From an uncultured bacterium (GTDB lineage: Bacteria > Verrucomicrobiota > Kiritimatiellia > RFP12 > UBA1067), in the NCBI GenBank assembly GCA_902799955.1, contig CADCCQ010000056.1, positions 1 to 64,000 on the forward strand: a DNA stretch of 64,000 nucleotides, given 5' to 3'. Position 1 is the stretch's first letter. The number at the start of each line of letters is the position of its first letter. This document shows, in pieces, positions 21,506 to 48,785 of this stretch. Below the pieces are notes generated by a model. That model was not told the DNA's origin. It was given only the letters and a program-made list of their open reading frames with translations, and made no database searches. The translations under genes and the position numbers were made by a program.

Positions 21506-22279
21506 TCAAAGGCGATTAAACCTCTCAGGGGGAATATCCATTCGGAACGCCGTGGTAAAATTCTCAAAAAGGAAATCCCACCACTGATCATCAGGGTACA
21601 TTTTTCTAAATCTACGAGAAATTCTACTGTTCATTCCATCAAACTTTCTTCTATCACCCGATGACATAGGATAAAAGCCCATATACTGAATCCAATACGG
21701 ATTGCGCCACATATAGTAAGGCGGTTCTCTAAGTACTTCGTAGCCCCACATGACTAAACTCGGGGTCGAGTATTCTTCAGGATACATTTGCGTATAGATG
21801 AAATACACGTCATCGTCCGTGATGGCGGCGATGCCCGCCAAGGACGATCCGTCCTTCCCAAACCAGGCAAGGCCAACCGTGCTGACAATCCGGTTACTGA
21901 TTGACCCAAACGAGACCGCGTCATCCATCTTGCACTTGCGAAGCAAGTCAATGAGTTCATTCCCAAACCGCCTGTCATCGGGCGAATCATCTTCAGGCTT
22001 CACCTCCTTAAATCTGATCCAATTTATATCACGTCGCACACACTGTAGATCTGAAGGACGCGACATCCACGGCCATCTCTCTTTCCGGAAATAAAACGCC
22101 CTATCCTCGTCAAGCGTCTTGATTCGATCTCGCATGGCCTCGAAAACCATCTCCCTAGCTGCCACAATTTCCTGCTCAATCGGCTCGTATTCAATATCGA
22201 TGCAACCTACGAATTGCATCGTGGTCAGCATTACGACAAATGCCAGAGTCATCACTCCACTATTGTTTTTGTTCCGCAT
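21506..22279 (-). CDS. Lipoprotein, paralogue of the duplicated protein at 39693-41156
   Basis: 257 residues with a lipobox (MQFVGC). The mature part shares long blocks with both halves of the protein at 39693-41156: REMVFEAMRDRI, FGNELIDLLRKC, GLAWFGKDGSSLAG, AAITDDDVYFIYT, PPYYMWR and FRMDIPPERF. Family and function are unknown. It is the last gene of the toxin/immunity array, so a role as an immunity or orphan-immunity lipoprotein is possible but not shown. AAGGAG precedes ATG. A truncated copy of the RHS gene start lies immediately upstream. Confidence 0.8.
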   Translation of the reverse strand: MRNKNNSGVMTLAFVVMLTTMQFVGCIDIEYEPIEQEIVAAREMVFEAMRDRIKTLDEDRAFYFRKERWPWMSRPSDLQCVRRDINWIRFKEVKPEDDSPDDRRFGNELIDLLRKCKMDDAVSFGSISNRIVSTVGLAWFGKDGSSLAGIAAITDDDVYFIYTQMYPEEYSTPSLVMWGYEVLREPPYYMWRNPYWIQYMGFYPMSSGDRRKFDGMNSRISRRFRKMYPDDQWWDFLFENFTTAFRMDIPPERFNRL

Positions 22280-22319
22280 TTTAGTTTCTCCTTATACATG
22301 GCAGAATATAGTTCATATG

Positions 22320-22385
22320 CTATTTTGAATACAGAATATTTGTCGTATTTCTTTCTACGCTCCACTTCTTCACCATCATCGCCAT
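22320..22385 (-). pseudogene. Truncated copy of the RHS-type gene start
   Basis: A 21-codon ORF beginning MAMMVKKWS matches the first codons of the RHS gene at 35806 (MAMIVKKWT), with the same GATGTCAAAT leader. It then diverges and stops. It marks the end of dispersed element copy 1. Confidence 0.7.
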
Positions 22386-22389
22386 ATTT

Positions 22390-22611
22390 GACATCTTTTC
22401 GCTCTGGGGCCGAGCGTCGTCCGCGACCGCCGCGAACAGGTACACTCCGGCCATCTACAACAATAAACAGATTTACCTTCGATGGAATTCCACGAAATCT
22501 GAAGTTTTTTCACGTCTGACATTTTCATCGGCTGTCTCGCCGCCCATTGGAGGTTTGCGAGAGCGTGCGCAATCGGAGGAAGAGCGGGGATGTCGTTCGC
22601 ATGGCGGAGCC
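22390..22611 (-). repeat. Dispersed leader element, copy 1
   Basis: About 220 bp strongly similar to 35808-36040. It includes the shared core ending GCGGGGATGTCGTTCGCATG (plus strand) and the block GGCCGAGCGTCGTCCGCGAC. On the minus strand it lies between an upstream gene's C-terminus and a new gene start. Confidence 0.8.
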
Positions 22612-23204
22612 TTCGGCGCCGTATTCTTGGCATCCTCCACCCCTCTCGCAAAGGGTGTTATTGATAATGGAACGATAAACCTTTTTCCATGCCAGACACA
22701 CTCACTCCCAAAACGGGCCTTCAGAGAAAATTCCGCCACACAACACGCAGACAAGGAGTGGAACTCCACTTTTACATCACCTAGCGGATTCTGCTCCGGC
22801 ATAAGATTTGATATTGGTGTCGCATACAGCAAACGACATGAGACCTTGCCTTTCTCTTCCTTGGGCAAGAAGAAGTACAATCGTTGACAATGAGAATCGC
22901 ATTCCTTTGCCACGAGGACATCCCCTATGATGGTCGGCCGCCACAACAGGACGAAACTGTTCTCGGTTCGAATTAGTAGCAGGTCCTTGTTTTTTTGCCG
23001 AATGACAAGCCGACGTTCAAAGTCATGATCAATATCTTTTGAAATCCGTTCTTCGGCCTTCCATACTCCGTCTGTAGAACTTACCTCCTGTGATATTAAT
23101 TCCTCGCGGTCATACAGCGGAGATATGCATGAACTCAAGCCTTCCAGCCCTGACGCTGAAACGTCAAGTGCCAACAACAAAAAGAACCAGGAAATATTTT
23201 TCAT
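22473..23204 (-). CDS. Exported protein paired with RHS fragment 3, candidate immunity
   Basis: 243 residues with an N-terminal signal peptide (MKNISWFFLLLALDVSASGL). Its ATG overlaps the stop of the upstream RHS fragment as ATGA, the tight coupling expected of a toxin tip and its immunity protein. The mature sequence is unrecognised. The last about 55 residues (from KAPPCERHPRSS) are encoded by dispersed element copy 1, so the original C-terminus seems to have been replaced. Periplasmic location fits a cell-wall-acting tip. Immunity is inferred from position only. Confidence 0.75.
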   Translation of the reverse strand: MKNISWFFLLLALDVSASGLEGLSSCISPLYDREELISQEVSSTDGVWKAEERISKDIDHDFERRLVIRQKNKDLLLIRTENSFVLLWRPTIIGDVLVAKECDSHCQRLYFFLPKEEKGKVSCRLLYATPISNLMPEQNPLGDVKVEFHSLSACCVAEFSLKARFGSECVWHGKRFIVPLSITPFARGVEDAKNTAPKAPPCERHPRSSSDCARSRKPPMGGETADENVRREKTSDFVEFHRR

Positions 23205-24472
23205 TTCGAAATCGCCTCTTGAATCTTCTTCAGGTTTTCTGGCACTGTGACATTCTTCTTGTCAGACCATCCTTTAGGGCATGGACATCCATTTTTGACT
23301 TCCATCTCAACCAAGTCAATCTCTATACCCTTATTTTTTGGGTTTTTGGACGCCGTCCACAAATCAAGCCATTCATCTCTATCCACTCCGCTAGGCGCAC
23401 CAGGGCGCGGTATCACCCACCCTGAACCTCCATCGCGAACCGTACGGCTATCACCGCCCGAATTCTTTTTCCTACCCCTGTAGATGACAAACTGGGTGCC
23501 TGGCTCGTACGCATAATCATCCCTTCCCTTGGAAACTCCTGTTTTTACAACCTTGTTAGTCGCGTAAGACCATCCAGCCAACCCTACCGCAGCGTCCATT
23601 TCTGTTAAATCCTTCTTATTCCAACTGTTTCTTTCAGCAGGCTTCTGCCCCGTATAAAATGTTATCAACATCCACCTATAACATTTTTTCAATCCAAAGA
23701 GATCTATGTCATCCGTACTCCTATTTCCCACAAAACAATATTTATTTGGAGACGGCAGTAAATCCCTCGCCACCCACCTCCCCGCCACTGGCTCGTAGTG
23801 TCTGTAATTGTAATACACAAGACCCAGCACACCATCGGCGTACTCGGAGGAGAAGCGGTAGGGATTGGCCGCGGTAACATTGAACGCCGTGAAGGCTGTG
23901 TTGGTTGTTGTCGCAGTGACCATGCCGAATGGCGCATACTCGTAGTGCGCAGGGATGCCGCGCGCGGACTGGTAGGACACAAGGTCGGACACGTTCTTGT
24001 TTCCGTCGTGGAAGTAGAAGAAGTTGTAGGAGCCCGAGACGCGCTGCATCCAGAGCGGGCGCGTCGCCACTGGCTCTGTCGGATCCCATCCAAAGGCGAT
24101 GTCGACCGCGTTGTTTGCGGCGGCGTTCAGGCGTTGGACGCAGAGGTAGCCGTCGTACACGAAGCGGTGGTGGGCGTTGGTCGTGGCCGAGACGGCGCTC
24201 GGCCCTCCCGTACTGTCGGTCACCGTCTCGAGGTATTCGACGCGGCGGCCCATGCGGTCGTATTTCATTGTGATGTTGGTCGTGCCGCACTCCCACAGGA
24301 CGGGGCGGTTCTCGCCGTTGTAGGTAACCTGCCAGACGCCTGTCGCGGTCTTTATCAGCGTCTGATTGCCGTCGTCATCGAACTGCGGCAGGAATCCGCC
24401 AGCGCCTTCAACGATGTTCGTGTACTGATTCAGGCCGTTGGCGGTGTAGGTTCTGTTCGATTCGAGATCCAT
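23201..24472 (-). CDS. Orphan RHS C-terminal fragment 3 with distinct tip
   Basis: 423 residues. Positions 1-260 are the end of an RHS core almost identical to the full RHS gene (YTNIVEGAGGFLPQFD, NGENRPVLWECG, HHRFVYDGYLCVQRLN, YEYAPFGMV, LVYYNYRHYEPVAGRWVARD, DIDLFGLKK). After LFGLKK comes a unique tip of about 160 residues beginning CYRWMLITFYTG. It has TVRDGGSG and DRDEWLDLWT, which loosely recall the 3D domain of cell-wall lytic enzymes. Homology to the core begins abruptly near 24490 with no promoter or signal peptide, so this is a displaced cassette. ATG 24472 may not be used. Confidence 0.8.
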   Translation of the reverse strand: MDLESNRTYTANGLNQYTNIVEGAGGFLPQFDDDGNQTLIKTATGVWQVTYNGENRPVLWECGTTNITMKYDRMGRRVEYLETVTDSTGGPSAVSATTNAHHRFVYDGYLCVQRLNAAANNAVDIAFGWDPTEPVATRPLWMQRVSGSYNFFYFHDGNKNVSDLVSYQSARGIPAHYEYAPFGMVTATTTNTAFTAFNVTAANPYRFSSEYADGVLGLVYYNYRHYEPVAGRWVARDLLPSPNKYCFVGNRSTDDIDLFGLKKCYRWMLITFYTGQKPAERNSWNKKDLTEMDAAVGLAGWSYATNKVVKTGVSKGRDDYAYEPGTQFVIYRGRKKNSGGDSRTVRDGGSGWVIPRPGAPSGVDRDEWLDLWTASKNPKNKGIEIDLVEMEVKNGCPCPKGWSDKKNVTVPENLKKIQEAISK

Positions 24473-24621
24473 GGACGAAATACGGTTGCGAACTTATTCT
24501 CTCCCCAAGAACACAAGATCTTCATCTTGTTCTGGATTACTGATTGCAATTGCATTCTCATGTTGATCAAAACTAAGCATAACGGCTGACCCCAGTGGTG
24601 GAGTAAGAGTGGTGGAGTAAC

Positions 24622-25470
24622 TCATGTCAGAACCTTTCTTCCTTTAGCCGCAAGGCAATACCTCCTCTGCGGAGAATGAGGGTTTTCGGCATCGACAGCG
24701 GCAATGTACCCGGCAGTTGCAAGCGGAGTCAGGTAGCGTGACGTGAAGAAGTTCGCGCTCGAGACGCTCAGCGCCGCACGCAGCTCAGCCGGTCGCCTCG
24801 GTCCATCGGCAAGGAGCTTGAGCAGATCGAAGGCGACTTTGTTGCTGCCTTTCTCCAGAAGACGCGGCACACTGACGGAAATCGACTGCGCGAAGCGCTC
24901 AAACGCCTTCCGCCGCACTTTCTGGGACTTCTCCTCGTCGACGGAAAGCCCCTTCCTCGCAGGTCCGGAGAGTTTCTCGTCCTCGAGTTCCCTGAGGACA
25001 AGATGAATCGACTTCTCGTGCATCTCGCGAATCTGCTCCCAGGGGACGATGTGGGAGTTGTATGACATGGTCGAGTTCTGCTTAAGCGTCTTCATGAAGG
25101 CGCTCACGTCGTACATGCGGCGGAAGAACCTCTCCCTGAACGACTGCTTACCGGGCTCATCGCCCGTTCGCACGCACATGTCCCATTCCTGGCGGATTTC
25201 GGAAAGTCGAACGCCTTGGTAAAGCGAAGCGATGCGATCAAACAGCTCTCCGTCGTCCAGCTTCCGCGCTTCGGGAAGATATACGAGCAAGTGGAAGTGG
25301 TTGCCCATGAAGCAATACGCCAGCACCCCGATTCCGGAGAACTCCGCCACGCGCCACATCCGTGCGACAAAACGCGAACGCTCCTCCTCAGTCAGGAAGA
25401 ACGCACGGTTCGCAATCCTGCTGATGAGGTGATAACAGCGATTGGACTTGAAATTGCGCAGGGCTCTCAT
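24622..25470 (-). CDS. REP-associated tyrosine transposase (Y1/RAYT)
   Basis: 282 residues. The HUH/Y1 transposase hallmark GNHFHLLV follows YHLISRIANRAFFLTEEE and VLAYCFM. A catalytic Tyr would be in the helix around MYDVSAFMKTLKQN. The C-terminal about 90 residues form a winged-helix-like part (KLLADGPRRPAELRAAL). RAYT enzymes mobilise REP palindromes; the flanking GGGGTCAGACCCC palindrome is the likely substrate. ATG 25470 has a TATAAT box only 7 nt upstream, predicting a leaderless mRNA. Confidence 0.88.
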   Translation of the reverse strand: MRALRNFKSNRCYHLISRIANRAFFLTEEERSRFVARMWRVAEFSGIGVLAYCFMGNHFHLLVYLPEARKLDDGELFDRIASLYQGVRLSEIRQEWDMCVRTGDEPGKQSFRERFFRRMYDVSAFMKTLKQNSTMSYNSHIVPWEQIREMHEKSIHLVLRELEDEKLSGPARKGLSVDEEKSQKVRRKAFERFAQSISVSVPRLLEKGSNKVAFDLLKLLADGPRRPAELRAALSVSSANFFTSRYLTPLATAGYIAAVDAENPHSPQRRYCLAAKGRKVLT

Positions 25471-25477
25471 GTCGGGT

Positions 25478-25483
25478 ATTATA
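25478..25483 (-). promoter_or_regulatory. Extended -10 box, predicted leaderless start of the transposase
   Basis: The minus strand reads AAATATGCTATAATACCCGA, with 7 nt from TATAAT to ATG 25470. Confidence 0.6.
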
Positions 25484-25583
25484 GCATATTTGCGCCTACT
25501 CCACCACTGGGGTCAGACCCCAGCCCGTACCGCACCAATCACGCGCTTACAGTCAAACATATACAGAAAAGATCCCCTTAGTC

Positions 25584-26534
25584 CTACTTAATAAAGTACC
25601 ATTCCGAATCTGCGTAGTCAATTATATTAGGCAAGCTGACAACAGTATATCTTCGAATCAAACCCGTGTTCGTCGCCGCTGCATCGCCCTTAACCCAAGA
25701 CGGATCTCGTTCCTGGACAATCGATTCTATGCCGACAAATGAAAGACACTTCCCGCAAAGGCTGTCTAAGCCAATTTTCATAGCCTCCATTGGCCTGCCT
25801 TTCGGACGGTGGAAGTCTGGATCGGGCTGAGGCGGATAGCATCCGCCGTCTCCGAATTCAAACACCACCTGAATTTCTTTGCCTCCCTGCGTGCCTAAAC
25901 GCGGGAAACGGAAATCAATGTAATACCGATTTTCACCTTGGCAATCTCGCCTGCAAAGTATTCCAGTCGCATACGCTGGTTCTCCAAAACCCCTTGCAAG
26001 AAGCGGACGAAACACAGACACACCACTATCCGCCTTTTGCTGTCGAGTTTGCGGTTCGGAGTTTAGTATCTGTACAAGCTTGAAAAATCTTTTGTACCCA
26101 TATCCACACTGCATTTGAACCGGAATGACAAACATCTCATACATCCAATTCTGCTCAAATGGAGAGATTTCAGAAACGCTTTCATACCCGACCATCCAGA
26201 TCTTGCGATTGCAAACTTGATCAAGAAGTGCTTTGTCGCCTCGAACATATATCTTTTCCTTGATATCTGACCTTTCCAGTCGCAGCGTGTATTCAACACC
26301 TGTCTGAGCATTCGTTTGTTTATCCACAACGCCCCACAATTCCAATCTCTCACCAAAGGAGTTGCCCAACATTGGCTTAAGCTCAGAATATTGGCCTGAC
26401 GAATCTCGGATGATAAACTCTCTCGCATGAACTGGGCCCTTGACGCAATCCGCCACCTGAGCGTTTTCTGCCCCATGAGCGGTTGCAACAGCCATGCTGA
26501 CCAGCACACCTAAAAAGCACTTCGAATTATACAT
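25584..26534 (-). CDS. Exported protein paired with RHS fragment 2, candidate immunity
   Basis: 316 residues from ATG 26534, which has GAGGG 9 nt upstream; an earlier ATG at 26543 lies 3 nt after the RHS stop. It has a signal peptide (MYNSKCFLGVLVSMAVATAHG). The mature part has several Cys pairs (CGYGYKRFF, CRRDCQG, CGKCLSF) suggesting disulfides. No family recognised. Position directly behind a distinct RHS tip makes it a candidate cognate immunity protein acting in the periplasm. Confidence 0.75.
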   Translation of the reverse strand: MYNSKCFLGVLVSMAVATAHGAENAQVADCVKGPVHAREFIIRDSSGQYSELKPMLGNSFGERLELWGVVDKQTNAQTGVEYTLRLERSDIKEKIYVRGDKALLDQVCNRKIWMVGYESVSEISPFEQNWMYEMFVIPVQMQCGYGYKRFFKLVQILNSEPQTRQQKADSGVSVFRPLLARGFGEPAYATGILCRRDCQGENRYYIDFRFPRLGTQGGKEIQVVFEFGDGGCYPPQPDPDFHRPKGRPMEAMKIGLDSLCGKCLSFVGIESIVQERDPSWVKGDAAATNTGLIRRYTVVSLPNIIDYADSEWYFIK

Positions 26535-26546
26535 ATCACACATCCC

Positions 26547-28877
26547 TCAATTCTGGGGTTTCACGGGCTTAATCTTAGAGTGATCAATCCGCGGATCATT
26601 TTTCCCAGCAACAATCCAACCGCCACAAGCAACACACCATACCTCTTGGTTATAAGCGTCCCTCATTGAGCCTTGCCACTCTCCAAGATCAGCCTTTAAA
26701 ACCGTCATGCAAGCTATTTGTTTCCGTTTGAAGATATCACCTTCACCATCATTGTTTTCATCTGGATTATGAATTCCGTCTGCATGAAAGAAATTTCCGC
26801 AACCATCATAATATGCATAATCAAAGCGACAGTTCTCATCTCCACCGTCCCTATGTTTTCGTTGCCAATTTGACATATCCACCTCCCCAGTATTCTGATC
26901 AACCTTAATCTCTGATTCTGCAGTTCCTTTTTTTGAATCCCACAGATGAATTGAATATATGATTGGAGATTCATTGTCTCTACATGTTTTGCAACGCACC
27001 ATCTCGCCTTTTTTCTTCTGTGCATTTTCGAGCTTTGCATAGCAATGCACTTGCTCTTTTTTTAATAAATCAATGTCGACACCTACATGACAGGAAACAA
27101 TGCCTATGCACCCCCTTGCCAATGTCTCTCGATACCATCTCTTTTCCTCTGGAGTCAATTTGCGCCCTACACGCCGTTCAATCCTTGCGATAAAATCAGA
27201 CAAGTAGTCCTCGAAGGAAATAGCCTTTTCCAAACCCAAGACATCAATATGATTGTAACCATCATTGGATAAAAGACGGTAAAGGTTAGAAACATGCGGC
27301 AGTTCATCTCTGCTCGTCCATCTCCCGTCCACTGGATTGTAATGTCTGTAGTTGTAGTACAGCAGACCTAAGGCACCGTCTGCACACTCCGCCGAGAACC
27401 TAAACGGATTATACTCGCGGAAGTCATAGGCCGTTACAGGCGTGCTGCGGCTTGTCGCTGCGACAGCTCCGAATGGCGCGTATTCGTAGTGCGCGGCGAT
27501 TCCGTTCGCCTGCTGGAAAAAGACGAGCTCAGACACGTTCTTGTTGCCGTCGTGTGTATAGAAGAGGTTGTACTGTCCGTACTTCTGGAGGACTAGCGGG
27601 CGTGTCGCGACCGGCTCCGAAGGATCCCATCCGAACACGAGGTCGATGGCGTTGTTGGAGGCACCGTTTAGGCGCTGGATGCAGAGATAACCGTCGTACA
27701 CGAAACGATGGTGAGCGTTAGTAGCGCCGCCAACTGTTTCAATATACTCCACCCTCCTTCCCATACGGTCGAACTTCATCGTGATGTTCGTGTTTCCGCA
27801 CGACCACAGAACAGGACGGTTCTCACCATTGTAAGTCACAGACCAGATACCCGTCGAGGTCTTTACGAGCGTTTGGTTGCCGTCGTCGTCGAACTGCGGC
27901 AGGAACACGCCAGCGTCTTCCACGATGTTCGTGTACTGGTTGAGGGCGTTGGCTACATATGTGCGATTTGTGCCGAGGTCGAGCGACGAGATGCGGTTCC
28001 CGATGTCGTCGTACTGGTAGGTGTACTCCGTCAGGTTCGTGGCCGCCGTGTCCTTCGTCCCTGACACGAGTTCGCTCCTGTCGTTGTATCCGTAGTGGTC
28101 GGTGCGTGCCTCGCTCATCATCGAGCCCGAGCGGGTTATCGCGGTGCGCCTTCCCGCCGCGTCGTTCACGTAGTCGTACTGCGAGATTACGCCTCCGTTG
28201 ATGTGGTTCTGCACCTGCGTCAGCAGGTCGCGGCTCTGCTCGTAGGTGTAGTACGCCGAGCCGGAGCCGCCGTACTGGAGGCGGCTCTTGAGATCCGTAC
28301 CGGGGAGGTAGTAGTATGTGAACCAGACGCCCGCCATCATCACGCGCTTCATGCGGCCAGTGTCCGCCTCGTACTCGATTATGTTCTTGCGAGAGTTGTC
28401 TATCGTGTACCCCAGGTCGCGGCCGAATGCGTCGCGGTGGTGAGCAAGCGTCTTGCCGTAGAGACCCGTCGTCGCCTCCGATACGACCTCGCCATAGTCG
28501 TTGTAGGCCGTGACGGTGGTCCCCGCCGCGGCCGTCGCGGACACCTGCCGACCCATCGCATCGTACGCGAGCGCAATGGACGGTGTGCCGTCCGAGTAGG
28601 CCGTGTTCGTCAGGTTGTTCCAGCCGTCGTAGGAGTAGGTAGTGACGATGCCGCGAGCCCATATGCGCGTCGCGAGATTTCCATTGGGTGTGTAGGTGTA
28701 TACGGGGCCGTTGCCGTCGGCGTAGACTTTGTTGGTCATACAACCCGATGCCTCGTAACGGAGCCAAGTCGTGACGTTCCCAGAATCTGGCCCAAGTGAT
28801 TTTTTGCAATAGGTCATCATTGTTGATTTGTTGCCGAACACCTTGGCTGTGATTTCAACCATTTTATGACTATTCAC
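26547..28877 (-). CDS. Orphan RHS fragment 2 with distinct Cys-rich tip
   Basis: 776 residues from a GTG at 28877 (ATG 28862 also possible), without signal peptide. From about residue 40 it is near-identical to the 3' third of the full RHS gene (NGNLATRIWARGIVTTYSYD, YDAMGRQVSATAAAG, MMAGVWFTYYYLPGTD, YEYAPFGAV, LLYYNYRHYNPVDGRWTSRD). After HIDVLGLE there is a tip of about 225 residues. It contains RKLTPEEKRWYRETLARGCI then GIVSCHVG, and HCYAKLENAQ. GCIG...CY spacing may mark a Cys catalytic centre, but I cannot name the family. It is a displaced toxin-tip cassette. Confidence 0.8.
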   Translation of the reverse strand: MNSHKMVEITAKVFGNKSTMMTYCKKSLGPDSGNVTTWLRYEASGCMTNKVYADGNGPVYTYTPNGNLATRIWARGIVTTYSYDGWNNLTNTAYSDGTPSIALAYDAMGRQVSATAAAGTTVTAYNDYGEVVSEATTGLYGKTLAHHRDAFGRDLGYTIDNSRKNIIEYEADTGRMKRVMMAGVWFTYYYLPGTDLKSRLQYGGSGSAYYTYEQSRDLLTQVQNHINGGVISQYDYVNDAAGRRTAITRSGSMMSEARTDHYGYNDRSELVSGTKDTAATNLTEYTYQYDDIGNRISSLDLGTNRTYVANALNQYTNIVEDAGVFLPQFDDDGNQTLVKTSTGIWSVTYNGENRPVLWSCGNTNITMKFDRMGRRVEYIETVGGATNAHHRFVYDGYLCIQRLNGASNNAIDLVFGWDPSEPVATRPLVLQKYGQYNLFYTHDGNKNVSELVFFQQANGIAAHYEYAPFGAVAATSRSTPVTAYDFREYNPFRFSAECADGALGLLYYNYRHYNPVDGRWTSRDELPHVSNLYRLLSNDGYNHIDVLGLEKAISFEDYLSDFIARIERRVGRKLTPEEKRWYRETLARGCIGIVSCHVGVDIDLLKKEQVHCYAKLENAQKKKGEMVRCKTCRDNESPIIYSIHLWDSKKGTAESEIKVDQNTGEVDMSNWQRKHRDGGDENCRFDYAYYDGCGNFFHADGIHNPDENNDGEGDIFKRKQIACMTVLKADLGEWQGSMRDAYNQEVWCVACGGWIVAGKNDPRIDHSKIKPVKPQN

Positions 28878-28917
28878 TCGCTAGCGTGGACGGACCGATT
28901 ATGCCTTTCTAACAGCT

Positions 28918-29505
28918 TTAGTGATGAAGTGTTTTTGTTTGCTCATCGCTTTCGTTATATAGTCTTCGTCGTTGTAGAATAGGATGTTCATACACCCAAG
29001 ACCAAATGCTTCCATCAACTTGACATACAGAGAGTTTGATAATGCCACTTTTATATGTAGCCGGGCGATGTTGTCCTCTGTCGACAATTAGTAAATTGGA
29101 AATATCAAGCCTCATAAGCAAAGATGTATTACGGATAGGAAAGATTCTCATTTCTGACACAGTTTGTTTTGTAGGTATACAAGCAATAACATTCCACGGA
29201 CATCCATGTGCATGATATGGCATAGCGAGATTATCATCACCCACAATGTCTCCACGAGAATAAGCTGAAATCATATGGTGTGGACCCCAAGGCTCTCCAA
29301 CTTCAAGAACTATATCCGAATATTCGTTAGAATAGTAAAAAGTTCGCCAAGATTCTACATCAGAAAGAGAATACTCACCGATTTCATCCCAATTAAATTT
29401 CTCTATTGTCTCAGACAGATTTTTGGGGGGCGCTATGCTACAACCTTCAAGAGTAAATATTGATACAAGACCAATGATTACGGTGTTAGGAAAAGCATTT
29501 CTCAT
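28918..29505 (-). CDS. Lipoprotein paired with the full RHS protein, candidate immunity
   Basis: 195 residues with a lipobox (FTLEGC) after a short signal sequence. GAGGAGG precedes ATG 29505, 49 bp after the RHS stop. The mature part has no family I recognise. A lipoprotein facing the periplasm would be the right place to block a peptidoglycan-active tip, so immunity to the 3D-domain tip is the leading hypothesis. This is inferred from position only. Confidence 0.75.
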   Translation of the reverse strand: MRNAFPNTVIIGLVSIFTLEGCSIAPPKNLSETIEKFNWDEIGEYSLSDVESWRTFYYSNEYSDIVLEVGEPWGPHHMISAYSRGDIVGDDNLAMPYHAHGCPWNVIACIPTKQTVSEMRIFPIRNTSLLMRLDISNLLIVDRGQHRPATYKSGIIKLSVCQVDGSIWSWVYEHPILQRRRLYNESDEQTKTLHH

Positions 29506-29554
29506 GAATGTGACCTCCTCATTACGAAGTGAACACTAAGGCACTATTGCTATA

Positions 29555-32500
29555 TCAAAGGTTATCGCATGGCGTATTTCCTCCAGTTCTTTTATGTGTA
29601 GCAAGATTTAATTTCACACCAATATTTTCTACTTTACCACATTTTATACATTCATCATGGTCTTGTTTCCCAATGTCAAAACGACACAATTTATCAGTAG
29701 GAACAACTATTTTTCCTCCCCTATCGTGAACCGTCTGCGTGATTTCTTGGCCATTAAGTGTGTATGTAATTGTACTACCGAATGGTATTGAACGCGGAGC
29801 TGCCACCACGCCTTCTGTAAATTTAGTTCCGTCAGCAGTTATGCCAGACGCATTATCGCCGCAACAAATCTTGCAAACGCAATAATATGTAAGAGTTGCC
29901 TTTATAGCCAATTCTTTTCCCTGTGAAGCTATATGAGCGGCTTCGGTTTTGGGTCCCCATTGACCATCAGCAGGAGGAGATAGAAGTCCCGCATTAATTA
30001 ACAACATTTGGTATTCTTTAATCTTTTGAACCGTTTTAGGTCCTAAAATGCCATCGGTTTTTGACCCAACTATACACTGTATTGATTTAACGCTTCTATC
30101 GCTAGTCAACCCCAAATAATCAAATCCTGAAAGTGATGAGTTCAAAACAAAAACATATGTATTCAGATCCAAATCCTCCTCTGGATCGCGTTGATGCCAT
30201 CTGCCATATTCCTCATTGTAATGCCTGAAGTTATAATATACAACGCCCAAGATATCATCAACATATTCAGACGAAAAGTGGAACGGATTGTACTCGCAGA
30301 AGTCGTACGCCGTCACGGACGTGCCGCTGCCAGTCGACACAACAGAGCCGAATGGGGCGTACTCGTAGTGCGCGGCGATTCCGTTCGCCTGCTGGAAGAA
30401 GACGAGCTCAGACACGTTCTTGTTCCCGTCGTTGGTGTAGAAGAGGTTGTACTGCCCGTACTTCTGTAGGATAAGCGGGCGTGTCGCCACCGGCTCCGAA
30501 GGATCCCAGCCGAACACGAGGTCTATGGAATTGTTGGCAGCGGCATTGAGCCGCTGGATGCAAAGGTATCCGTCGTACACGAAGCGATGGTGGGTATTTG
30601 TCACACCGCTTACCATCTCGACGTATTCGACGCGCCGGCCCATGCGGTCGAAGGACATTACGATGTTCGTCGCGCCGCACTCCCACAGGACAGGGCGGTT
30701 CTCGCCGTTGTAGGTGACCTGCCATACGCCGGTTGAGGTTTTAATTAAAGTCTGGTTGCCGTCCAGATCGAACTCCGGCAGGAATCCGCCCGCGCCTTCA
30801 ACGATGTTCGTGTACTGGTTGAGGGCATTGGCTGTATAGGTTCTGTTTGTGCCGAGGTCGAGCGAAGAGAGGCGGTTGCCGATATCATCGTACTGATAGG
30901 CGTATTCGTTCAGCGTCGCGTTCTTGACGGCATTGGTCAGCTCATTGCGGTCGTTGTAGCCGTAGTAGTCCGTCCTTGTCTCGCTCATCATCGAGCCCGA
31001 GCGGGTTATCGCGGTGCGCCTTCCCGCCGCGTCGTTCACGTAGTCGTACTGCGAGATGACCCCGCCGTTGATATGGTTCCTTACCTGCGTCAAGAGGTCG
31101 CGGCTCTGCTCGTAGGTGTAGTAGGCCGATCCCGAGCCGCCGTACTGGAGGCGACTCTTGAGGTCTGTCCCTGGGAGGTAGTAGTATGTGAACCAGACGC
31201 CCGCCATCATCACGCGCTTCATGCGGGCGGTGTCCGCCTCGTACTCGATGATGCTCTTGCGGGAGTTGTCTATCGTGTACCCCAGGTCGCGGCCATAGCC
31301 GTCGCGATGGTGAGCAAGCGTCTTGCCGTAGAGGCCCGTCGTCGCCTCGGACGCGACCTCGCCATAGTCGTTGTAGGCCGTGACGGTGGTCCCCGCCGCG
31401 TCCGTCGCCGACACCTGCCGCCCCATCGCGTCGTAGGAGAGCGATATCGACGGCGTGCCGTCGGAATAGGTCGTCGAAACAAGCTGGTTCCAGCCGTCAT
31501 AAGCGTAGCTCGTGACGACGCCGCGCGCCCATGTGCGCGTCGCGAGATTGCCGCTGTCGGTGTAGGTGTAGGTCGGGCCGTGGCCGTCCGCATACGTCTT
31601 CGCGAGGAGGAGCCTGGTCGCCTCGTCGTAGATCCAGGTAGTAGTGTCGCCCTGCGGCGCGCTGGGGTCAGTGCGCCCTACCGTCTCATCCCTGAAGGTC
31701 GTCATGTTCGTCATGACGTTGAAGGCGTCGTAGGCGTAGGTCACGGGGTAGGTGCCGCCGCCCTCGTAAACCTTGTTGCCGCGAAGGTCGTATTCGTACA
31801 CCATCGCGACGCCCAGCGCGTTCGTGACCGCCGCAAGGCGGCCCGCCGCGTCGTAGGCGTAGCTCGTCGTCGCGCCCGTCGCGTCCGCCGTCGAGGCGAG
31901 GCGCCCAAGCGCGTCGTAGGCGTTGGTCGTCGCGTTGCCACGTCCACCGGTCTTGACGACCGCACGGCGGTATGCGTCGTACGCGACCGTGTTCGTGACG
32001 GCGGAATGGGAGACGGAGAGCGTCACGACGCCGTCCACCGATTCCGTCAGCGAGAGGTTCGTCGCCTCGGGGACGCGCTCGTACGAGAGGCGCGTCGATG
32101 TCGCGGGGTCAAACTCCGCCCACGCTTCGGTCGCGTTGCCGCGCACGTCGATCAACACGCTGCGCGACTCGTTCGCGAGGGTGAGCCCGGACACCTGCGC
32201 CATGTTCGTGGTGACGAGAGGTGCGATGGACGGGTCGGAGCAGAACTGCACGCCCGTCGCCACGCGCCACACTTCGCCATCGACGATTTCGTTCTCTACC
32301 AGGCTCTGCGAAGCGCGGAACGCGCCGTCCGCCGAGCGGACGACGGATACGAGGTCGCCCCACTGGTCGTACATCCGCGTCTCCGTTGGCTCGCCGGTCG
32401 ACGCAGTGGCGATGAGCTGGCCCCTCGCGTTGTACGTGCGCTCCGTCGTCAGGGTCGAGCCGTTCGCGCCCGGGCGCTCCTCGCGCACGACCTCGCCGAA

Positions 32501-35500
32501 GCCGTTGCGGTACGTCTTCGCCCAGCGCGCGCCGTCCGGCGAGAGGTAGTTCACCTTCTCCCACCTCAACCCGTCCGACGTCACGCCGTACGCGTGGTAT
32601 TCGGGCGTTACGGCGGTTCCCGTCACGGAGGCGAGCGAGCCGTCGGGGTTGATTGTCGTCACGCGCGTTCCGCCCGAGGGGAGCGTGACTGTCGTCGTCC
32701 TCCCGTCGGCGGAGTAGGCGTATGCCGTCACGAGGCCGTGTTCGTCAGTCTCCGAGACGACGCGCCCCTCCCCGTCGTACGCCCACAGGCGCGTCCGCGC
32801 CTCGCAGCCGTCCGCCGTGTCCGTCTCGCGGACGACACGCCCGTCGGCGTCGTACTCGTACGCCGTCGCCACCGCGCCGTGGCGGCCGTACCTGACGGAC
32901 GAGACCTTCGCCTTCGCCGCGTCGTATGAGTTCGTCGTGGCGATCCCGTCCTCGCCGAGCGTCCACACGGGGCCGGTGCAGATCCAGTCGGCGGACGACG
33001 ATTTGCCGTCGGAGCGGACGGACGAGACGACCTTGTGCGACGCGCTGTAGCGGTTCGTCGTCCAGGCGGTCTCGCGCCACTCGCCGCCAACAAGCGCGTA
33101 GTCATGGACGGTGACGGCGTTTCCGGATGCATCGTATGACGTCACGCGGCGGATCGACTTCCCGTCGACGACTAGGAAGCCACCGTCTGCGGACCACACG
33201 CCCTCGTTGCGCGTCTCGGTCCAGGAGAAGTCGGCGCCGACGGGCGAGTAGTCCGTCCGCACGGCGCGTCCCGCCTCGTCGACGGAGAGGGTCGTGCGCC
33301 CCTGCGCGTCGAGGTCGCGGAAGCTCGTCCGCGACTCGTTCCCGGCGCGACGGACGCGCGTGACGCGGTTCGACGCGTAGACGGTCTCCTCGTCCTCGAC
33401 GGTGACCCCGTTCTCCGTCACCACGCGACGGCGCGGGCGGCGGTCCACCACGCCGCCGGACGCCCCGTCGTCCGAATAGGACCACGAAGTCGAGCGGAGG
33501 ATCCCGCCCCTCACCGCCGCCGTCTCGTTCGTGACGCGGTTCCAGCCGTCGTAGAGGTACGAGGTCTGGAGCCCGGTGCCGTTGACGTCCGAGGCGACGG
33601 TGCCTGTGTCGTTCCGCTCGGCGGAGTAGAGGGTACGTCCGCCGACGACGCGCGAGGTCTCCATGATTTCCCTGTCCGAGACGTCGAGCACGGACGACTC
33701 GGCGCGGACGACTCCGCCCGTCGCGTCGAGCGTCGCGAGCGTCGCGTTCCACGCGCGGGCGACCCCGTCGTACGAGATCGTCTTCGCCACCGTCCTGGCG
33801 GCGTCCGTCCCCGGCGCCTTCGTGAACGTCCAGTCCTGCGCCGAACTGTCATAGACCCACTCGGAGTGGAACTGGAACTGCTCATTCCGGTATTCGTGGA
33901 GGTGGAACGTCGATACGCCATCACCCGAAAAGGTAAAGGTCTTCGCAACCGCGCCGGACGGTCCGCTCCACGTAACGCGGTATGACGTGCCGGAAAGCGC
34001 CTCCACGTCCATGCGTCCGTCGGCGCGCGAGACGACGGACGTGATTGCGCCGGAGCCCGCGTCGCGGAGAACGTCGATGCCGAGGCCCTCGACGGGGACC
34101 GCCTCCCCGTCGGCGGGGGTCAGCGACTTGACCGACCCGTCGGGCCAGTAGGTTATCTCCGTCCTGTCCTCAAGGACCTCGACGAGGAAGCCGTCCTCGT
34201 CATAGCGGACGCCGCGCGCGAGGCCGGCTGACATGCCGGCGGGGCGTCCGTCCCTGTATTCCGTGGCCTCGCCGAACGGATCGACGGTCACGACGTCCAG
34301 CGGACTCGCGTCCCTGCGCGACACGACGCGGCGGCACATCGGATGGTCGTAGACGAGCGCCGCAGGGGTCCAGAGCCGCCCGGCGGGTCCCGTCTCCCGT
34401 ATCGCGAGCCGCCCGACGGGAAGTCCCGCGATCCAAGGCGTCCGCCCGAAGTTCTGCGAGAACTCCACGCACCCGTTCGCGGCCGTCGTCCCCTCGCCGC
34501 AGTCGCAGTCGCACTTCCTCGCCTTCTCCGGCATGGCGCTGAACGACACGACGCCCTTGTCGACCTGACGTCCATCCTCCAGGAGCACGAACCGCACCTT
34601 CCCGACCTTGTTCGTCCCTTTCCAGGAGTCTGATCCGGCGTCGGCGTACGCCTGCGCGGTCTCCCCGCCGCTCCCATCCACCACGATGCCGTCAGCCTTG
34701 TCAACATACGCGATCTTATACGCGCTCCCGGGCTTCTTCGTGCCGTCTATCGTCGCCGTCGCGCGCGGCGAGCCGCCCATCTTCGGCGAGAACCTCACGC
34801 TCTGCCGGTCAAGAACGAGCCAGACGTCGTTGGTGCCTTCCGAGAACGAGAAGGTGCATGACACGCCCGCCGGGCCGCCGATGCTCGACATCTTCATGGA
34901 CACGGGATAGCTGATGCCCCCGACGAGGACGCCGGAGACGACCTGTCCGGGCGTATCGTTGGGATACGACGCCGACGCCGTCAGGTCGCCGATGCTCAGC
35001 TCCACGTAGTCGTCGCCCGCGACCTGCAGCGCATACGTCCCCGTGGCAGGGGGCGTGAACCATCCGCCCTTGACCACGACCTCGCAGACGTTGCTGTAGT
35101 ACGTCCCGTCCACGTGGAAGTCGAACGGCCACGACACCGTCGTCGTCCCGCCGCCGCCGGAAAGGCCGTAGATGGAAAAATCACCGTGCGGCTTGCTGAT
35201 CACGACATTGGCCGTGAAGACTCCGCCGAACCCGGAGGCGCCGTCGGGAACGTCGCGGAGCGGAACGCCGCGCGCCGCAGCGGCCGGGGCGGGCGCAGGC
35301 GCAACCAGAACGGACTCGGTCGGAGCGGGGGACTTCCCGGCGGACCGGGCGGAATCGGCCTTGGACGCCGGCGAGGGAACCGTCCCCTCCGGCGCACGGG
35401 CGTCAGGAGAAGGCGCCGGCAACGCACCGGCCCCGGTCGCCGCCTCGATGGAGGAGCCGTCAAGCGCGAACACGAACACGCCGACCGCGTCGGGCCACTC

Positions 35501-35806
35501 CGACAGCGGCACGAACGTCCCCTCGCCGCTGTCAAGGACGGTCCAGTCGTCGGCGAGGATCTGGTAGCCGAGCGGCACGTCGCCGACGCCGAACACCATC
35601 AGCACCGCGTCGGCGCCGCCGTCCATGAAAAGAAGAAGTCCACCGTCGACGCGTACGCATTCCGCGACCAGCCCCGACGCCGAGACGGCTGTCGGCGGCT
35701 CGGCCGACGCGTCAACGCCGACGTACTCGAACGCCACTGCCGCCATCACGGCGGCTACAAGCGCCACGAACAGCTTTCCTGTCCACTTCTTCACTATCAT
35801 CGCCAT
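29555..35806 (-). CDS. Full-length RHS/YD-repeat exported protein with peptidoglycan-binding and 3D-type tip
   Basis: 2,083 residues. ATG 35806 has AAAGGA 8 nt upstream and starts a signal peptide (MAMIVKKWTGKLFVALVAAV). A Pro/Ala linker leads to a PA14-like beta-sandwich at about 190-320 (YYSNVCEVVVKGGWFTPP, YALQVAGDDYVEL). Then come a CDCDCGEG motif, a long array of YD repeats, and the RHS core ending near FDYLGL. The last about 185 residues hold two peptidoglycan-binding-like units (KTDGILGPKTVQKI, ADGQWGPKTEAAH). A 3D-type domain follows (ASGITADGTKF, VVAAPRSIPFGSTITYT, TVHDRGGKI). The tip should therefore bind and cleave or remodel cell wall. No T6SS parts are nearby. Confidence 0.88.
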   Translation of the reverse strand: MAMIVKKWTGKLFVALVAAVMAAVAFEYVGVDASAEPPTAVSASGLVAECVRVDGGLLLFMDGGADAVLMVFGVGDVPLGYQILADDWTVLDSGEGTFVPLSEWPDAVGVFVFALDGSSIEAATGAGALPAPSPDARAPEGTVPSPASKADSARSAGKSPAPTESVLVAPAPAPAAAARGVPLRDVPDGASGFGGVFTANVVISKPHGDFSIYGLSGGGGTTTVSWPFDFHVDGTYYSNVCEVVVKGGWFTPPATGTYALQVAGDDYVELSIGDLTASASYPNDTPGQVVSGVLVGGISYPVSMKMSSIGGPAGVSCTFSFSEGTNDVWLVLDRQSVRFSPKMGGSPRATATIDGTKKPGSAYKIAYVDKADGIVVDGSGGETAQAYADAGSDSWKGTNKVGKVRFVLLEDGRQVDKGVVSFSAMPEKARKCDCDCGEGTTAANGCVEFSQNFGRTPWIAGLPVGRLAIRETGPAGRLWTPAALVYDHPMCRRVVSRRDASPLDVVTVDPFGEATEYRDGRPAGMSAGLARGVRYDEDGFLVEVLEDRTEITYWPDGSVKSLTPADGEAVPVEGLGIDVLRDAGSGAITSVVSRADGRMDVEALSGTSYRVTWSGPSGAVAKTFTFSGDGVSTFHLHEYRNEQFQFHSEWVYDSSAQDWTFTKAPGTDAARTVAKTISYDGVARAWNATLATLDATGGVVRAESSVLDVSDREIMETSRVVGGRTLYSAERNDTGTVASDVNGTGLQTSYLYDGWNRVTNETAAVRGGILRSTSWSYSDDGASGGVVDRRPRRRVVTENGVTVEDEETVYASNRVTRVRRAGNESRTSFRDLDAQGRTTLSVDEAGRAVRTDYSPVGADFSWTETRNEGVWSADGGFLVVDGKSIRRVTSYDASGNAVTVHDYALVGGEWRETAWTTNRYSASHKVVSSVRSDGKSSSADWICTGPVWTLGEDGIATTNSYDAAKAKVSSVRYGRHGAVATAYEYDADGRVVRETDTADGCEARTRLWAYDGEGRVVSETDEHGLVTAYAYSADGRTTTVTLPSGGTRVTTINPDGSLASVTGTAVTPEYHAYGVTSDGLRWEKVNYLSPDGARWAKTYRNGFGEVVREERPGANGSTLTTERTYNARGQLIATASTGEPTETRMYDQWGDLVSVVRSADGAFRASQSLVENEIVDGEVWRVATGVQFCSDPSIAPLVTTNMAQVSGLTLANESRSVLIDVRGNATEAWAEFDPATSTRLSYERVPEATNLSLTESVDGVVTLSVSHSAVTNTVAYDAYRRAVVKTGGRGNATTNAYDALGRLASTADATGATTSYAYDAAGRLAAVTNALGVAMVYEYDLRGNKVYEGGGTYPVTYAYDAFNVMTNMTTFRDETVGRTDPSAPQGDTTTWIYDEATRLLLAKTYADGHGPTYTYTDSGNLATRTWARGVVTSYAYDGWNQLVSTTYSDGTPSISLSYDAMGRQVSATDAAGTTVTAYNDYGEVASEATTGLYGKTLAHHRDGYGRDLGYTIDNSRKSIIEYEADTARMKRVMMAGVWFTYYYLPGTDLKSRLQYGGSGSAYYTYEQSRDLLTQVRNHINGGVISQYDYVNDAAGRRTAITRSGSMMSETRTDYYGYNDRNELTNAVKNATLNEYAYQYDDIGNRLSSLDLGTNRTYTANALNQYTNIVEGAGGFLPEFDLDGNQTLIKTSTGVWQVTYNGENRPVLWECGATNIVMSFDRMGRRVEYVEMVSGVTNTHHRFVYDGYLCIQRLNAAANNSIDLVFGWDPSEPVATRPLILQKYGQYNLFYTNDGNKNVSELVFFQQANGIAAHYEYAPFGSVVSTGSGTSVTAYDFCEYNPFHFSSEYVDDILGVVYYNFRHYNEEYGRWHQRDPEEDLDLNTYVFVLNSSLSGFDYLGLTSDRSVKSIQCIVGSKTDGILGPKTVQKIKEYQMLLINAGLLSPPADGQWGPKTEAAHIASQGKELAIKATLTYYCVCKICCGDNASGITADGTKFTEGVVAAPRSIPFGSTITYTLNGQEITQTVHDRGGKIVVPTDKLCRFDIGKQDHDECIKCGKVENIGVKLNLATHKRTGGNTPCDNL

Positions 35807-35807
35807 A

Positions 35808-36040
35808 TTTGACATCCTTTCGCTTCTGGGCCGAGCGTCGTCCGCGACCGCCGCGAACCGATACACTCTGCCCTTCTAAAACAATAAACGGATTTCACGT
35901 CCGCGCAATTCCAAGGAATCTGAAGATTTTTTATGTCTGGCATTTTCATCGCTTTCATTCGGCTTTCTCATCGCTCATCCGAGGTTTTCGAGAGTGCGCG
36001 CAACCTGCTGAAGAGCGGGGATGTCGTTCGCATGGCGGAG
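35808..36040 (-). repeat. Dispersed leader element, copy 2
   Basis: On the minus strand this lies directly before the full RHS gene and encodes the last about 30 residues of the upstream lipoprotein. It matches copy 1 over its whole length and copy 4 (48668-48785) over its gene-proximal half. Confidence 0.8.
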
Positions 36041-36773
36041 TCTTTGGGGACTGTCCCCATCTTTCCACCGCGAACATAACTTCACACTGGCGTTCCTCGG
36101 TTTTGGAAATCACGAATGTCTTATGAAACGAGAATCCTTCCACGCCATAGCAATCAGTTCTTCGTACAAGCACACTCACATTCTCCTCAACTTTCGCAAG
36201 CCCGGACCCTAGAAAACTTTCTCTATCTAGCACAAGGTTGGTCCCGCCCTCAACCGACAGAAAAGCATTTGGATGACCCACAGGCCAAACATCTATTTTG
36301 TATGACATGTTCGGACGCTTCTTGCTTGTGAGCTCCGCCGTCGCAACCACGCATCTGCCAGTACCTGCATTGGCACTTTGCCTTTTGACGCGCCAACATG
36401 GGAACATGATGCCAACAGGTTGTTTTTTGCCTTGTTGTCCACTCGCACTCAGGCTATTTATTTCATACACCTCTCCATTGTCAAACACCCATTGATTGTG
36501 CACGATACCAGATCCAAAATTATTCGTTGGAAGCCCAAGAATACCTTCAACCTCTTCATACGAAGTTGCGTCCACAACCTTGTCCGCAAGTCTAACATCG
36601 AAAATCCTCATGTTCTGCGCACACTTCCCGATTGAAGTGCTAGGATGCTCGGGAATCGTCGCGCAGCCATTACACAGCAGACCCATAATTACGGCCATGC
36701 GAAACATTACTCGGCAACTGCCCGTAAGCACTGCAAGTACAGGGGACAAAACGATTCGTGCAAAGGGTTTCAT
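35955..36773 (-). CDS. Lipoprotein with grafted leader and repeat-derived C-terminus
   Basis: 272 residues. The start MKPFARI and its ribosome region (AAAGGAACGCCCC) are shared with genes starting at 38819 and 41156. A second, natural-looking lipoprotein signal follows (MFRMAVIMGLLCNGC), so a leader seems to have been added. The mature part is unrecognised. The C-terminal about 28 residues (KTPPCERHPRSSAGCAHSRK) come from dispersed element copy 2, as in the protein at 22473-23204. It precedes the RHS gene by about 150 bp. Function unknown. Confidence 0.75.
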   Translation of the reverse strand: MKPFARIVLSPVLAVLTGSCRVMFRMAVIMGLLCNGCATIPEHPSTSIGKCAQNMRIFDVRLADKVVDATSYEEVEGILGLPTNNFGSGIVHNQWVFDNGEVYEINSLSASGQQGKKQPVGIMFPCWRVKRQSANAGTGRCVVATAELTSKKRPNMSYKIDVWPVGHPNAFLSVEGGTNLVLDRESFLGSGLAKVEENVSVLVRRTDCYGVEGFSFHKTFVISKTEERQCEVMFAVERWGQSPKTPPCERHPRSSAGCAHSRKPRMSDEKAE

Positions 36774-36888
36774 GGGGCGTTCCTTTCGATCTGCGTTTCT
36801 TTGACAGGATTAACAGGATTGACAGGATGATGCTTTTTCCACAACGACAGCAGAACCTTGAATAACACCATGAACAATTGCATTACAA

Positions 36889-37137
36889 TCACCGCCACTG
36901 CGCAATAGACGAAGACTCCCACCAACATGAGACCAAGACCCAGCAAAACATTACCAGACCCAGCAAAACATTACCCATATGTTCCTGACCACCAATTATG
37001 TCACGCATAAAGGAGATATACGGCCTAAGAACATATTCGACGGCATTGACGGTCGCCTTCTCGGCAACCATCGAACCCACGCAGATGAAACAAACACAGC
37101 AACAGAATAACGCAAGAATACTTTTGATCAATTTCAT
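36889..37137 (-). CDS. Small two-segment membrane protein (82 aa), copy A
   Basis: Begins MKLIKSILALFCCCVCFICV, a hydrophobic Cys-rich segment, and has a second membrane segment (LGLVMFCWVLVSCWW) before a short tail. No family recognised. It lies within the segmental duplication. Compared with copy B at 41272 it has an extra stretch (DIIGGQEHMGN), so the two diverge only by that indel and point changes. Confidence 0.6.
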   Translation of the reverse strand: MKLIKSILALFCCCVCFICVGSMVAEKATVNAVEYVLRPYISFMRDIIGGQEHMGNVLLGLVMFCWVLVSCWWESSSIAQWR

Positions 37138-37141
37138 CTTG

Positions 37142-37240
37142 TCATTCCTTTCTTTGCGTCCCTTGTGTTCTTTTGGCCTTCCTATCCAATTCCGCGAGCG
37201 CGAGGGACAAGCCGAGAATTGTCTTTGTCAGTTTCTTCAT
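37142..37240 (-). pseudogene. 32-residue leader remnant (MKKLTKTILG...), copy A
   Basis: The first codons and ribosome region match the exported protein starting at 39689 (MKKLTKTILVATLVLA). After the hydrophobic segment it switches to ELDRKAKRTQ and stops. It overlaps the ribosome site of the 82-residue gene. It is most likely a truncated signal-peptide cassette, possibly still translated. Confidence 0.6.
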
Positions 37241-37317
37241 GGTTCATCTACTCCTTTCGCTTGCCGCCACAGGGCGCGGTCCGACCGCGCCATCGCCGTC
37301 GCGCCTATAGCCACTAT

Positions 37318-41156: not shown

Positions 41157-41271
41157 GGGGCGTTCCTTTCGGTTTGCGTTTCTTTGACAGGATTAACAGG
41201 ATTGACAGGATGATGCTTTCTCCACACCGACAACAGAAACTTGAATAACACCATGAACAATTGCATTACAA

Positions 41272-41478
41272 TCACCGCCACTGCGCAATAGACGAAGACT
41301 CCCACCAACATGAGACCAAGACCCAGCAAAACATTACCATGCCACGCGTAAAGGAGATATAGGGACTAAGAATATAGGCGATAGCATTGAATGTCGCCTT
41401 CTCGGCAACCATCGAACTCACGCAAACGAAACAAACACAGCAACAGAATAACGCAAGAATACTTTTGATCAATTTCAT
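41272..41478 (-). CDS. Small two-segment membrane protein (68 aa), copy B
   Basis: Begins MKLIKSILALFCCCVCFVCV and ends in the same LVSCWWESSSIAQWR tail as copy A at 36889. It is shorter by 14 residues in the middle (the frame is kept). Function unknown. Confidence 0.55.
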   Translation of the reverse strand: MKLIKSILALFCCCVCFVCVSSMVAEKATFNAIAYILSPYISFTRGMVMFCWVLVSCWWESSSIAQWR

Positions 41479-41482
41479 CTTG

Positions 41483-41581
41483 TCATTCCTTTCTTTGCGA
41501 CCCTTGTGTTCTTTTGGCCTTCCTATCCAATTCCGCGAGCGCGAGGGATGAGACGAGAATAGCCTTTGTCAGTTTCTTCAC
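41483..41581 (-). pseudogene. 32-residue leader remnant, copy B
   Basis: GTG start, then KKLTKAILVSSLALAELDRK and stop, parallel to 37142-37240. It is a truncated signal-peptide cassette. Confidence 0.55.
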
Positions 41582-41820
41582 TTCACCTTCTCCTTTCGCT
41601 TGCCGCCGCAGGGTGCGTTACCCGCGCGGCGCGGCTGGACTCTGCCGCGCGGGATTGCCCGCCGGGGCGCTTTCATCGCCTTTTTCATGGTTGACATTTT
41701 ACCATGTTTCCTTTCGCTTTGACACAGCCTTTTACGGTAACTCAACGAATGATGCTGCGGATCTCAAGTCCTTGATAAAATCTCAGGGGGCTGTCCCCGC
41801 TTCTCTATTCCCTCGTTTTA

Positions 41821-48667: not shown

Positions 48668-48785
48668 TTCTTTTAACTCTGGGCCGAGCGTCGTCCGCGA
48701 CCGCCGCGAACCGATGCACTCTGCCCTTCTAAAACAATAAACGGATTTCACGTCCATGGAATTCCAAGAAATCTGAAAATTATTA
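48668..48785 (-). repeat. Dispersed leader element, copy 4 (half)
   Basis: Shares GGGCCGAGCGTCGTCCGCGA and the following about 100 bp with copies 1 and 2. It lies upstream of the GH123-like gene as copy 2 lies upstream of the RHS gene. Confidence 0.75.

Follow-up and report, generated by a model that had tools for sequence, protein, structure and literature searches.

The well-studied RHS and contact-dependent growth inhibition (CDI) systems mostly rely on toxins that act in the cytoplasm, on cytoplasmic immunity proteins and on a dedicated delivery device. The closest described counterparts of the locus considered here are the orphan rhs/cdiA-CT cassettes (Poole et al. 2011, PMC3150448; Koskiniemi et al. 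2014, PMC3967940), in which a full-length gene is followed by silent 3' fragments with unrelated C-terminal tips, an immunity gene lies beside each tip, homology stops at the tip boundary, and modules move between genomes. Sec-dependent RHS polymorphic toxins are also known (Zhang et al. 2012, PMC3482391; Streptococcus suis WapA, PMC12704120); the 2012 survey (PMC3482391) lists Verrucomicrobia among their hosts and names Imm65 as the only apparent lipoprotein among the immunity families. Here, we analyzed an RHS gene array in 64,000 nucleotides of DNA (positions 1 to 64,000 of contig CADCCQ010000056.1, assembly GCA_902799955.1; this whole stretch is hereafter the window) from an uncultured Kiritimatiellia bacterium. 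The array has the same architecture (PMC3150448), as an original prediction made from the DNA letters had proposed, and is probably an RHS polymorphic-toxin locus of gut Kiritimatiellae in which a Sec-exported active toxin is accompanied by two silent cassettes, each with its own envelope immunity protein. Although it belongs to a known kind, that of orphan rhs/CDI-like cassettes, it comes from another lineage, no CdiB or type VI secretion system (T6SS) partner was found, the immunity candidates are exported proteins or lipoproteins, and the tips resemble envelope-acting enzymes. Whereas the 2012 survey has one lipoprotein immunity family, exported candidates are the majority in this bacterial family, and what is new is that genomes free of T6SS, immunity candidates that are mostly exported, and the visible scar of a toxin deletion occur together.

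The open reading frames (ORFs) of the array comprise one exported RHS gene (RHS1) and two promoterless RHS 3' fragments (RHS2 and RHS3) with three differing tips, and in all three modules the tip is directly followed by a different gene for an exported protein, with the spacings originally reported (Table 1). RHS1 is predicted to open with a signal peptide or signal anchor after the ATG at 35815, followed by a PA14-like stretch, RHS/YD repeats (PF05593, E 1.4e-32), Rhs_assc_core, and tip 1. The RHS-associated core TIGR03696 scores above its cut-off in all three copies. RHS/YD repeats and this core ahead of a variable C-terminal tip are characteristic of RHS polymorphic toxins, as is an abrupt fall in similarity once the tip boundary is reached: in 100-bp blocks, nucleotide identity between the cores is about 60 to 93% upstream of the boundary and about 30 to 50% past it. 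RHS2 is homologous to RHS1 from about 28777 to the tip boundary, and homology of RHS3 to RHS1 and RHS2 starts at about 24489. The cores had been described as near-identical, which alignment rules out, since identity over the whole alignment is 81% for RHS1/RHS2, 72% for RHS1/RHS3, and 70% for RHS2/RHS3, and values of about 90 to 93% are reached only in parts of RHS1/RHS2. The PA14-like stretch recurs at the equal position in a protein of another locus (L004), but in both proteins it is below threshold (in RHS1, E 0.0005 and 20.4 bits against a cut-off of 24), and we do not claim PA14 as an established N-terminal domain.

Tip 1 carries a PG_binding_1 domain (E 2.5e-6) and a second domain with 28 to 39% alignment identity to 3D-domain proteins of the same bacterial family. 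One of these relatives, a lipoprotein, matches PF06725 at E 5.8e-14, and a joint profile of tip 1 and its 3D relatives matches Bacillus YuiC structures at about 1e-18 (3e-18); tip 1 alone did not reach the PF06725 threshold. YuiC, whose catalytic residue is D162, is a minimal lytic transglycosylase of the MltA-like type (PMC4499186). As in the YuiC/Sps and MltA 3D-domain lytic transglycosylases (PMC4499186), the 3D pattern of tip 1 includes the Asp at the catalytic position, along with that of the D-x-G motif (DRGG), and stands beside a peptidoglycan-binding domain. Unlike these enzymes, tip 1 forms the C-terminal end of an RHS protein, has a candidate inhibitor as its partner, and lacks the first conserved Asp. 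Because of this replacement we file tip 1 as 3D-like and not as a confirmed 3D member, and its predicted ability to bind and cleave peptidoglycan is not certain. Tip 1 and immunity candidate 1 occur together in another genus (genome G105, locus L005), where the protein after the tip is 83% identical to immunity candidate 1. Nucleotide identity to the window is 84 to 96% over the tip and immunity gene, beside a more divergent core (63 to 92%, mostly 75 to 85%), which agrees with the proposed exchange of cassettes by recombination.

Tip 2 resembles microbial transglutaminases. It matches the Kutzneria enzyme at 5e-5 by itself and at 4.8e-8 as a profile with two relatives from elsewhere in the phylum, and the same profile also matches Streptomyces transglutaminases (at about 5e-5). 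Like the microbial transglutaminases of Kutzneria (KalbTG, 5M6Q, PMC5612097) and Streptomyces (MTG, 1IU4), tip 2 has the RGCIG Cys motif and the Asp and His positions, and on these three residues we class it as microbial-transglutaminase-like; Cys41 and Asp137, at the catalytic positions, are invariant in three relatives, and the His is kept, slightly shifted in one. Tip 2 differs from those enzymes in being RHS-borne and in having an exported immunity candidate adjacent to it. It is predicted to modify or cross-link envelope proteins. The neighbors of the tip 2 relatives are likewise predicted to be exported, and immunity candidate 2 has remote similarity to one of them, in genome G229 (locus L180; Z 4.8). 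Locus L180, from a distant family of the phylum, is itself an array densely packed with short RHS 3' fragments. Their tips differ, and nearly all of the fragments precede genes for proteins that are exported or have a transmembrane start.

For tip 3, no relative among solved structures was found. Relatives of tip 3 belong to other families of the phylum, with 66% and 47% identity in G120 and 52% over part in G349, and throughout this tip family the D-x-G and [LI]D[LV]W motifs are invariant. These motifs are reminiscent of the 3D domain, so that a 3D-like fold is possible, but the likeness is by motif only: profile comparison with the tip 1 family (hhalign) gives a probability of 10% and E 0.003. 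The claim that the tips are mutually unrelated is upheld at the sequence level, although a distant relation between tips 1 and 3 is possible. In G120 (locus L176), the gene after tip 3 encodes a lipoprotein similar to immunity candidate 3 (25% at the amino acid level, E 1.2e-5, Z 12.9), and the same genome has a longer RHS gene, with a tip related to tip 3, that is also followed by a gene resembling immunity candidate 3 (Z 5.6).

To place the array in context, we surveyed genomes of the same bacterial family. RHS cores (TIGR03696) are present in 72 of 115 family genomes, and the T6SS sheath marker VipB (PF05943) is present in 1; the array's own genome (92% complete) lacks it, as do 114 of the 115, in keeping with what the originally noted lack of T6SS parts would suggest. 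The sole VipB genome, represented by L184 (G044:C5), is 56% complete and has no RHS match. From 56 loci, we extracted 71 distinct RHS tips. The first Asp of the predicted autoproteolysis site that precedes the tip is kept in 70 of the 71, and both paired Asp residues (in RD... and D-x-x-G) are present in all three window copies, consistent with autoproteolytic tip release. The median gap between tip and neighbor is -4 bp. The next gene has a predicted signal peptide or lipobox for 57 of the 71 tips (80%) and a transmembrane-like start for 6 more, compared with 154 of 466 exported (33%) when the same rule is applied to neighbors of other ORFs (Fisher p 7e-14; 9e-10 with the first ATG only). Cysteine enrichment of the tips was considered as further evidence of export but is weak and was not used (2.8% versus 2.1%, p 0.014, noisy background). 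Tip and neighbor appear to be inherited together for tip 1, tip 3, and a fourth tip described below. Among all extracted pairs of homologous tips, 8 of 19 also have homologous neighbors, a fraction which indicates that neighbors also undergo exchange, change quickly, or were in some cases wrongly chosen by the script.

Several points weigh against toxin-immunity pairs that act in the envelope. The remaining 8 of the 71 tips have a non-exported neighbor, and the exported fractions given above are approximate, with calls made by a hydrophobicity/lipobox rule in place of a trained predictor and a background set that includes spurious ORFs. The pairing of tip 2 with immunity candidate 2 across genomes is weak, with no similarity between this candidate and the neighbor of the other tip 2 relative (Z 0.9). 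The first Asp of the "3D" trio in tip 1 is a Pro, the single-sequence AlphaFold model of tip 3 is too poor for a fold search (predicted local distance difference test score [pLDDT] 38), and neither an exporter for the outer membrane nor an injection device was identified. Even so, reading the array as toxins with immunity proteins is well supported by the sequence evidence, namely, the architecture, the domain matches of tips 1 and 2, the recurring tip-neighbor pairs, the family-wide export of neighbors, and the deletion scar.

On this toxin-plus-immunity reading, Sec export of RHS1 would place the toxin in the periplasm of the producer, so an exported immunity protein would be needed if the tip acts there. 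The exported or lipoprotein candidates would neutralize the toxin as it passes through the producer's periplasm on export and when it arrives in the periplasm of kin. The two firmly assigned tips, 1 and 2, both resemble enzymes that work outside the cytoplasm; tip 1 with its PG_binding_1 and 3D-like domains, the likeness of tip 2 to a secreted transglutaminase, and the family-wide export of neighbors support the proposal that the toxins target the cell envelope. Recombination within the common RHS core, for which the identity of the spare cassettes to RHS1 (up to 93%) is enough, could transfer a spare tip to the full-length gene. Delivery to the target cell would follow a T6SS-independent route. 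The target might instead be eukaryotic (rumen protozoa, fungi, or the host), with the toxins acting in the manner of Tc toxins, which use RHS cocoons, and effectors aimed at hosts can likewise contain transglutaminase domains (PMC3482391). We regard this as very unlikely, because a muralytic tip that binds peptidoglycan and exported immunity genes devoted to the toxins fit mainly bacterial targets, and no Tc-like partner genes were seen beside the array.

The window also contains traces of a fourth RHS toxin, which the original prediction did not mention; it also lacked the repeated leader, the two orphan-immunity genes, and the transposase gene between modules 2 and 3. The 3' end of immunity candidate 3 runs into a second copy of the RHS1 leader, and at a junction at about 22361-22369 the leader and RHS start codons are joined to the tail of a tip of the type found in another RHS locus, L003, followed by the matching immunity gene. 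The L003-type tip and its neighbor recur in locus L017 (46% and 31% identical, respectively) and so form a recurring pair, of which the window holds only the immunity half. The simplest reading is that an internal deletion took a fourth full-length RHS toxin gene and spared its leader, last codons, and immunity gene, such that the immunity gene would have outlived its toxin. An AlphaFold model of the L003-type tip made with two sequences was too poor for a fold search (pLDDT 56, and below 50 in the conserved GYWGCGANV region). We had considered the repeat formed by the two leader copies as the boundary of a mobile element, a reading dropped because the repeat runs on into the first codons of an RHS gene and from there into the 3' end of a known tip. 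Retention of immunity genes after loss of the cognate effector is also known from the T6SS orphan immunity arrays of Vibrio cholerae (Kirchberger et al. 2017, PMC5361080); in contrast to those arrays, here an internal deletion fuses the leader and first codons of the RHS gene with the final codons of the tip and leaves the immunity gene behind the RHS promoter, so that insertion of a new module is unnecessary. The window also has a fused double gene of the same immunity family; this fused form recurs alone in G086, and a single-copy relative in G060. The original prediction held that neighbors conserved without the matching tip would speak against pairing; only this orphan-immunity family behaves in that way, and one of its cases is explained by the visible toxin deletion. 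The lipoprotein gene upstream of RHS1 is possibly an accessory orphan immunity gene whose 3' end was lost into the RHS leader.

Table 1. Features of the RHS array and its surroundings (window coordinates)
Feature	Position	Strand	Description
RHS1	29555-35866	minus	Full-length RHS gene; ORF from GTG 35866, probable start ATG 35815
Tip 1	29558-30103	minus	PG_binding_1, then 3D/YuiC-like (MltA-like) domain
Immunity candidate 1	28918-29505	minus	Lipoprotein, lipobox LEGC; 49-bp gap after RHS1
RHS2	26547-28877	minus	RHS 3' fragment without signal peptide
Tip 2	26550-27230	minus	Microbial-transglutaminase-like; RGCIG Cys41, Asp137, His about 151 (tip numbering)
Immunity candidate 2	25584-26543	minus	Predicted Sec-exported; 3-bp gap after RHS2
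RHS3	23201-24472	minus	RHS 3' fragment
Tip 3	23204-23689	minus	Relatives in G120, G349, and G217; weak 3D-like motif
Immunity candidate 3	22473-23204	minus	Predicted exported; ATGA overlap (-4 bp) with RHS3
RHS leader of RHS1	35782-36047	minus	Promoter/5' region
Second RHS leader copy	22361-22616	minus	Includes start codons reading MSNMAMMVKKW; putative 5' remnant of deleted RHS gene
Toxin tip remnant	22262-22369	minus	Putative 3' remnant of deleted tip; about 35 last codons, 98% identical to L003 tip
Orphan immunity gene	21506-22279	minus	Lipoprotein; 97.7% identical to gene after a different RHS tip in L003
Fused double orphan-immunity gene	39693-41156	minus	Halves 49% and 45% identical to L003 immunity
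Lipoprotein gene upstream of RHS1	35955-36773	minus	71% identical to gene beside immunity gene in L003
Transposase gene	24622-25470	minus	Y1 (REP/IS200-like); between modules 2 and 3

The scar, together with the missing 5' ends of RHS2 and RHS3, the transposase gene between them, and the frameshift in the homologous tip 1 copy of G105, could also be taken to mean that the locus is degenerate, that is, that only RHS1, or none of the copies, matters, and that RHS2, RHS3, and the scar are pseudogene remains, without current function, of an RHS family that is expanding. We consider this rather unlikely, given that the reading frames of both fragments and of the three immunity genes run uninterrupted for hundreds of codons and that the same style of array, with intact tips and exported neighbors, is found in many genomes. 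The Y1 transposase has a Fic-like/winged-helix C-terminus, and N-terminal fragments of it recur near RHS genes in two other loci (L013 and L097).

Genome-wide, the RHS leader is found in four places only, all in this contig. The third copy, 107 bp at 48678-48784 (93% identical), lies directly upstream of a gene (43621-48648) for a 1,675-aa exported protein with a GH123 catalytic domain, whose coding start shares an 18-bp stretch with RHS1; this gene may have captured an RHS promoter. The fourth is an exact 59-bp copy of part of the leader at 61678-61736, far from the RHS genes. A different pair of 5' regions, at 36748-37290 and 41131-41627, is 85% identical across upstream DNA, start codon, and MKPFAR codons before two different lipoprotein genes, and the MKPFA start recurs at about 38820, a pattern of common expression/signal segments with differing bodies.

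That the GH123-like gene has an RHS leader too, that the window is rich in exported proteins, and that some relatives of tip 1 in the family are 3D-domain lipoproteins that stand alone and resemble housekeeping enzymes would all suit an explanation in which the RHS proteins are the bacterium's own surface or wall-remodeling proteins, with housekeeping tips and ordinary lipoproteins as neighbors. This is improbable in our view: homologous cores carry differing tips, tip and neighbor move together between genera, their pairing recurs, and one neighbor was kept though its toxin was deleted. No Pfam or NCBIfam family matches were found for the three tip neighbors of the array.

The relatives of the RHS cores are Kiritimatiellae, Verrucomicrobia, and Lentisphaerae metagenome-assembled genomes, many of them from goat, sheep, and cattle guts, in line with the Planctomycetes-Verrucomicrobia-Chlamydiae-type host originally suggested. 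The genome to which the window belongs (3.8 Mb) has five RHS cores, three in the array and one each on two other contigs (C22 and C50). The tip on C50 (locus L085) has a metallopeptidase motif, HEVGHMLGLEH, and is followed by a gene for a small lipoprotein.

Taken together, the evidence points to a whole bacterial family, common in the ruminant gut, whose toxins leave the cell by Sec and have their protectors in the envelope, and in which the usual T6SS is missing, which raises the question of how RHS proteins cross to a rival cell. The families of tips 1, 2, and 3 and their neighbors are concrete candidate toxin/immunity pairs, and the scar is a clear snapshot of an orphan immunity gene arising while keeping the toxin promoter. 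More tentatively, and with somewhat more doubt than confidence, we propose that gut and rumen Kiritimatiellae hold a large T6SS-independent RHS arsenal specialized in periplasm-acting toxins, in which exported or lipoprotein immunity is the rule and the toxins need to cross only the outer membrane. If so, the toxins would reach their targets by a new route, and internal deletions that put a spared immunity gene under the toxin's promoter would offer a direct way of building an immunity bank.
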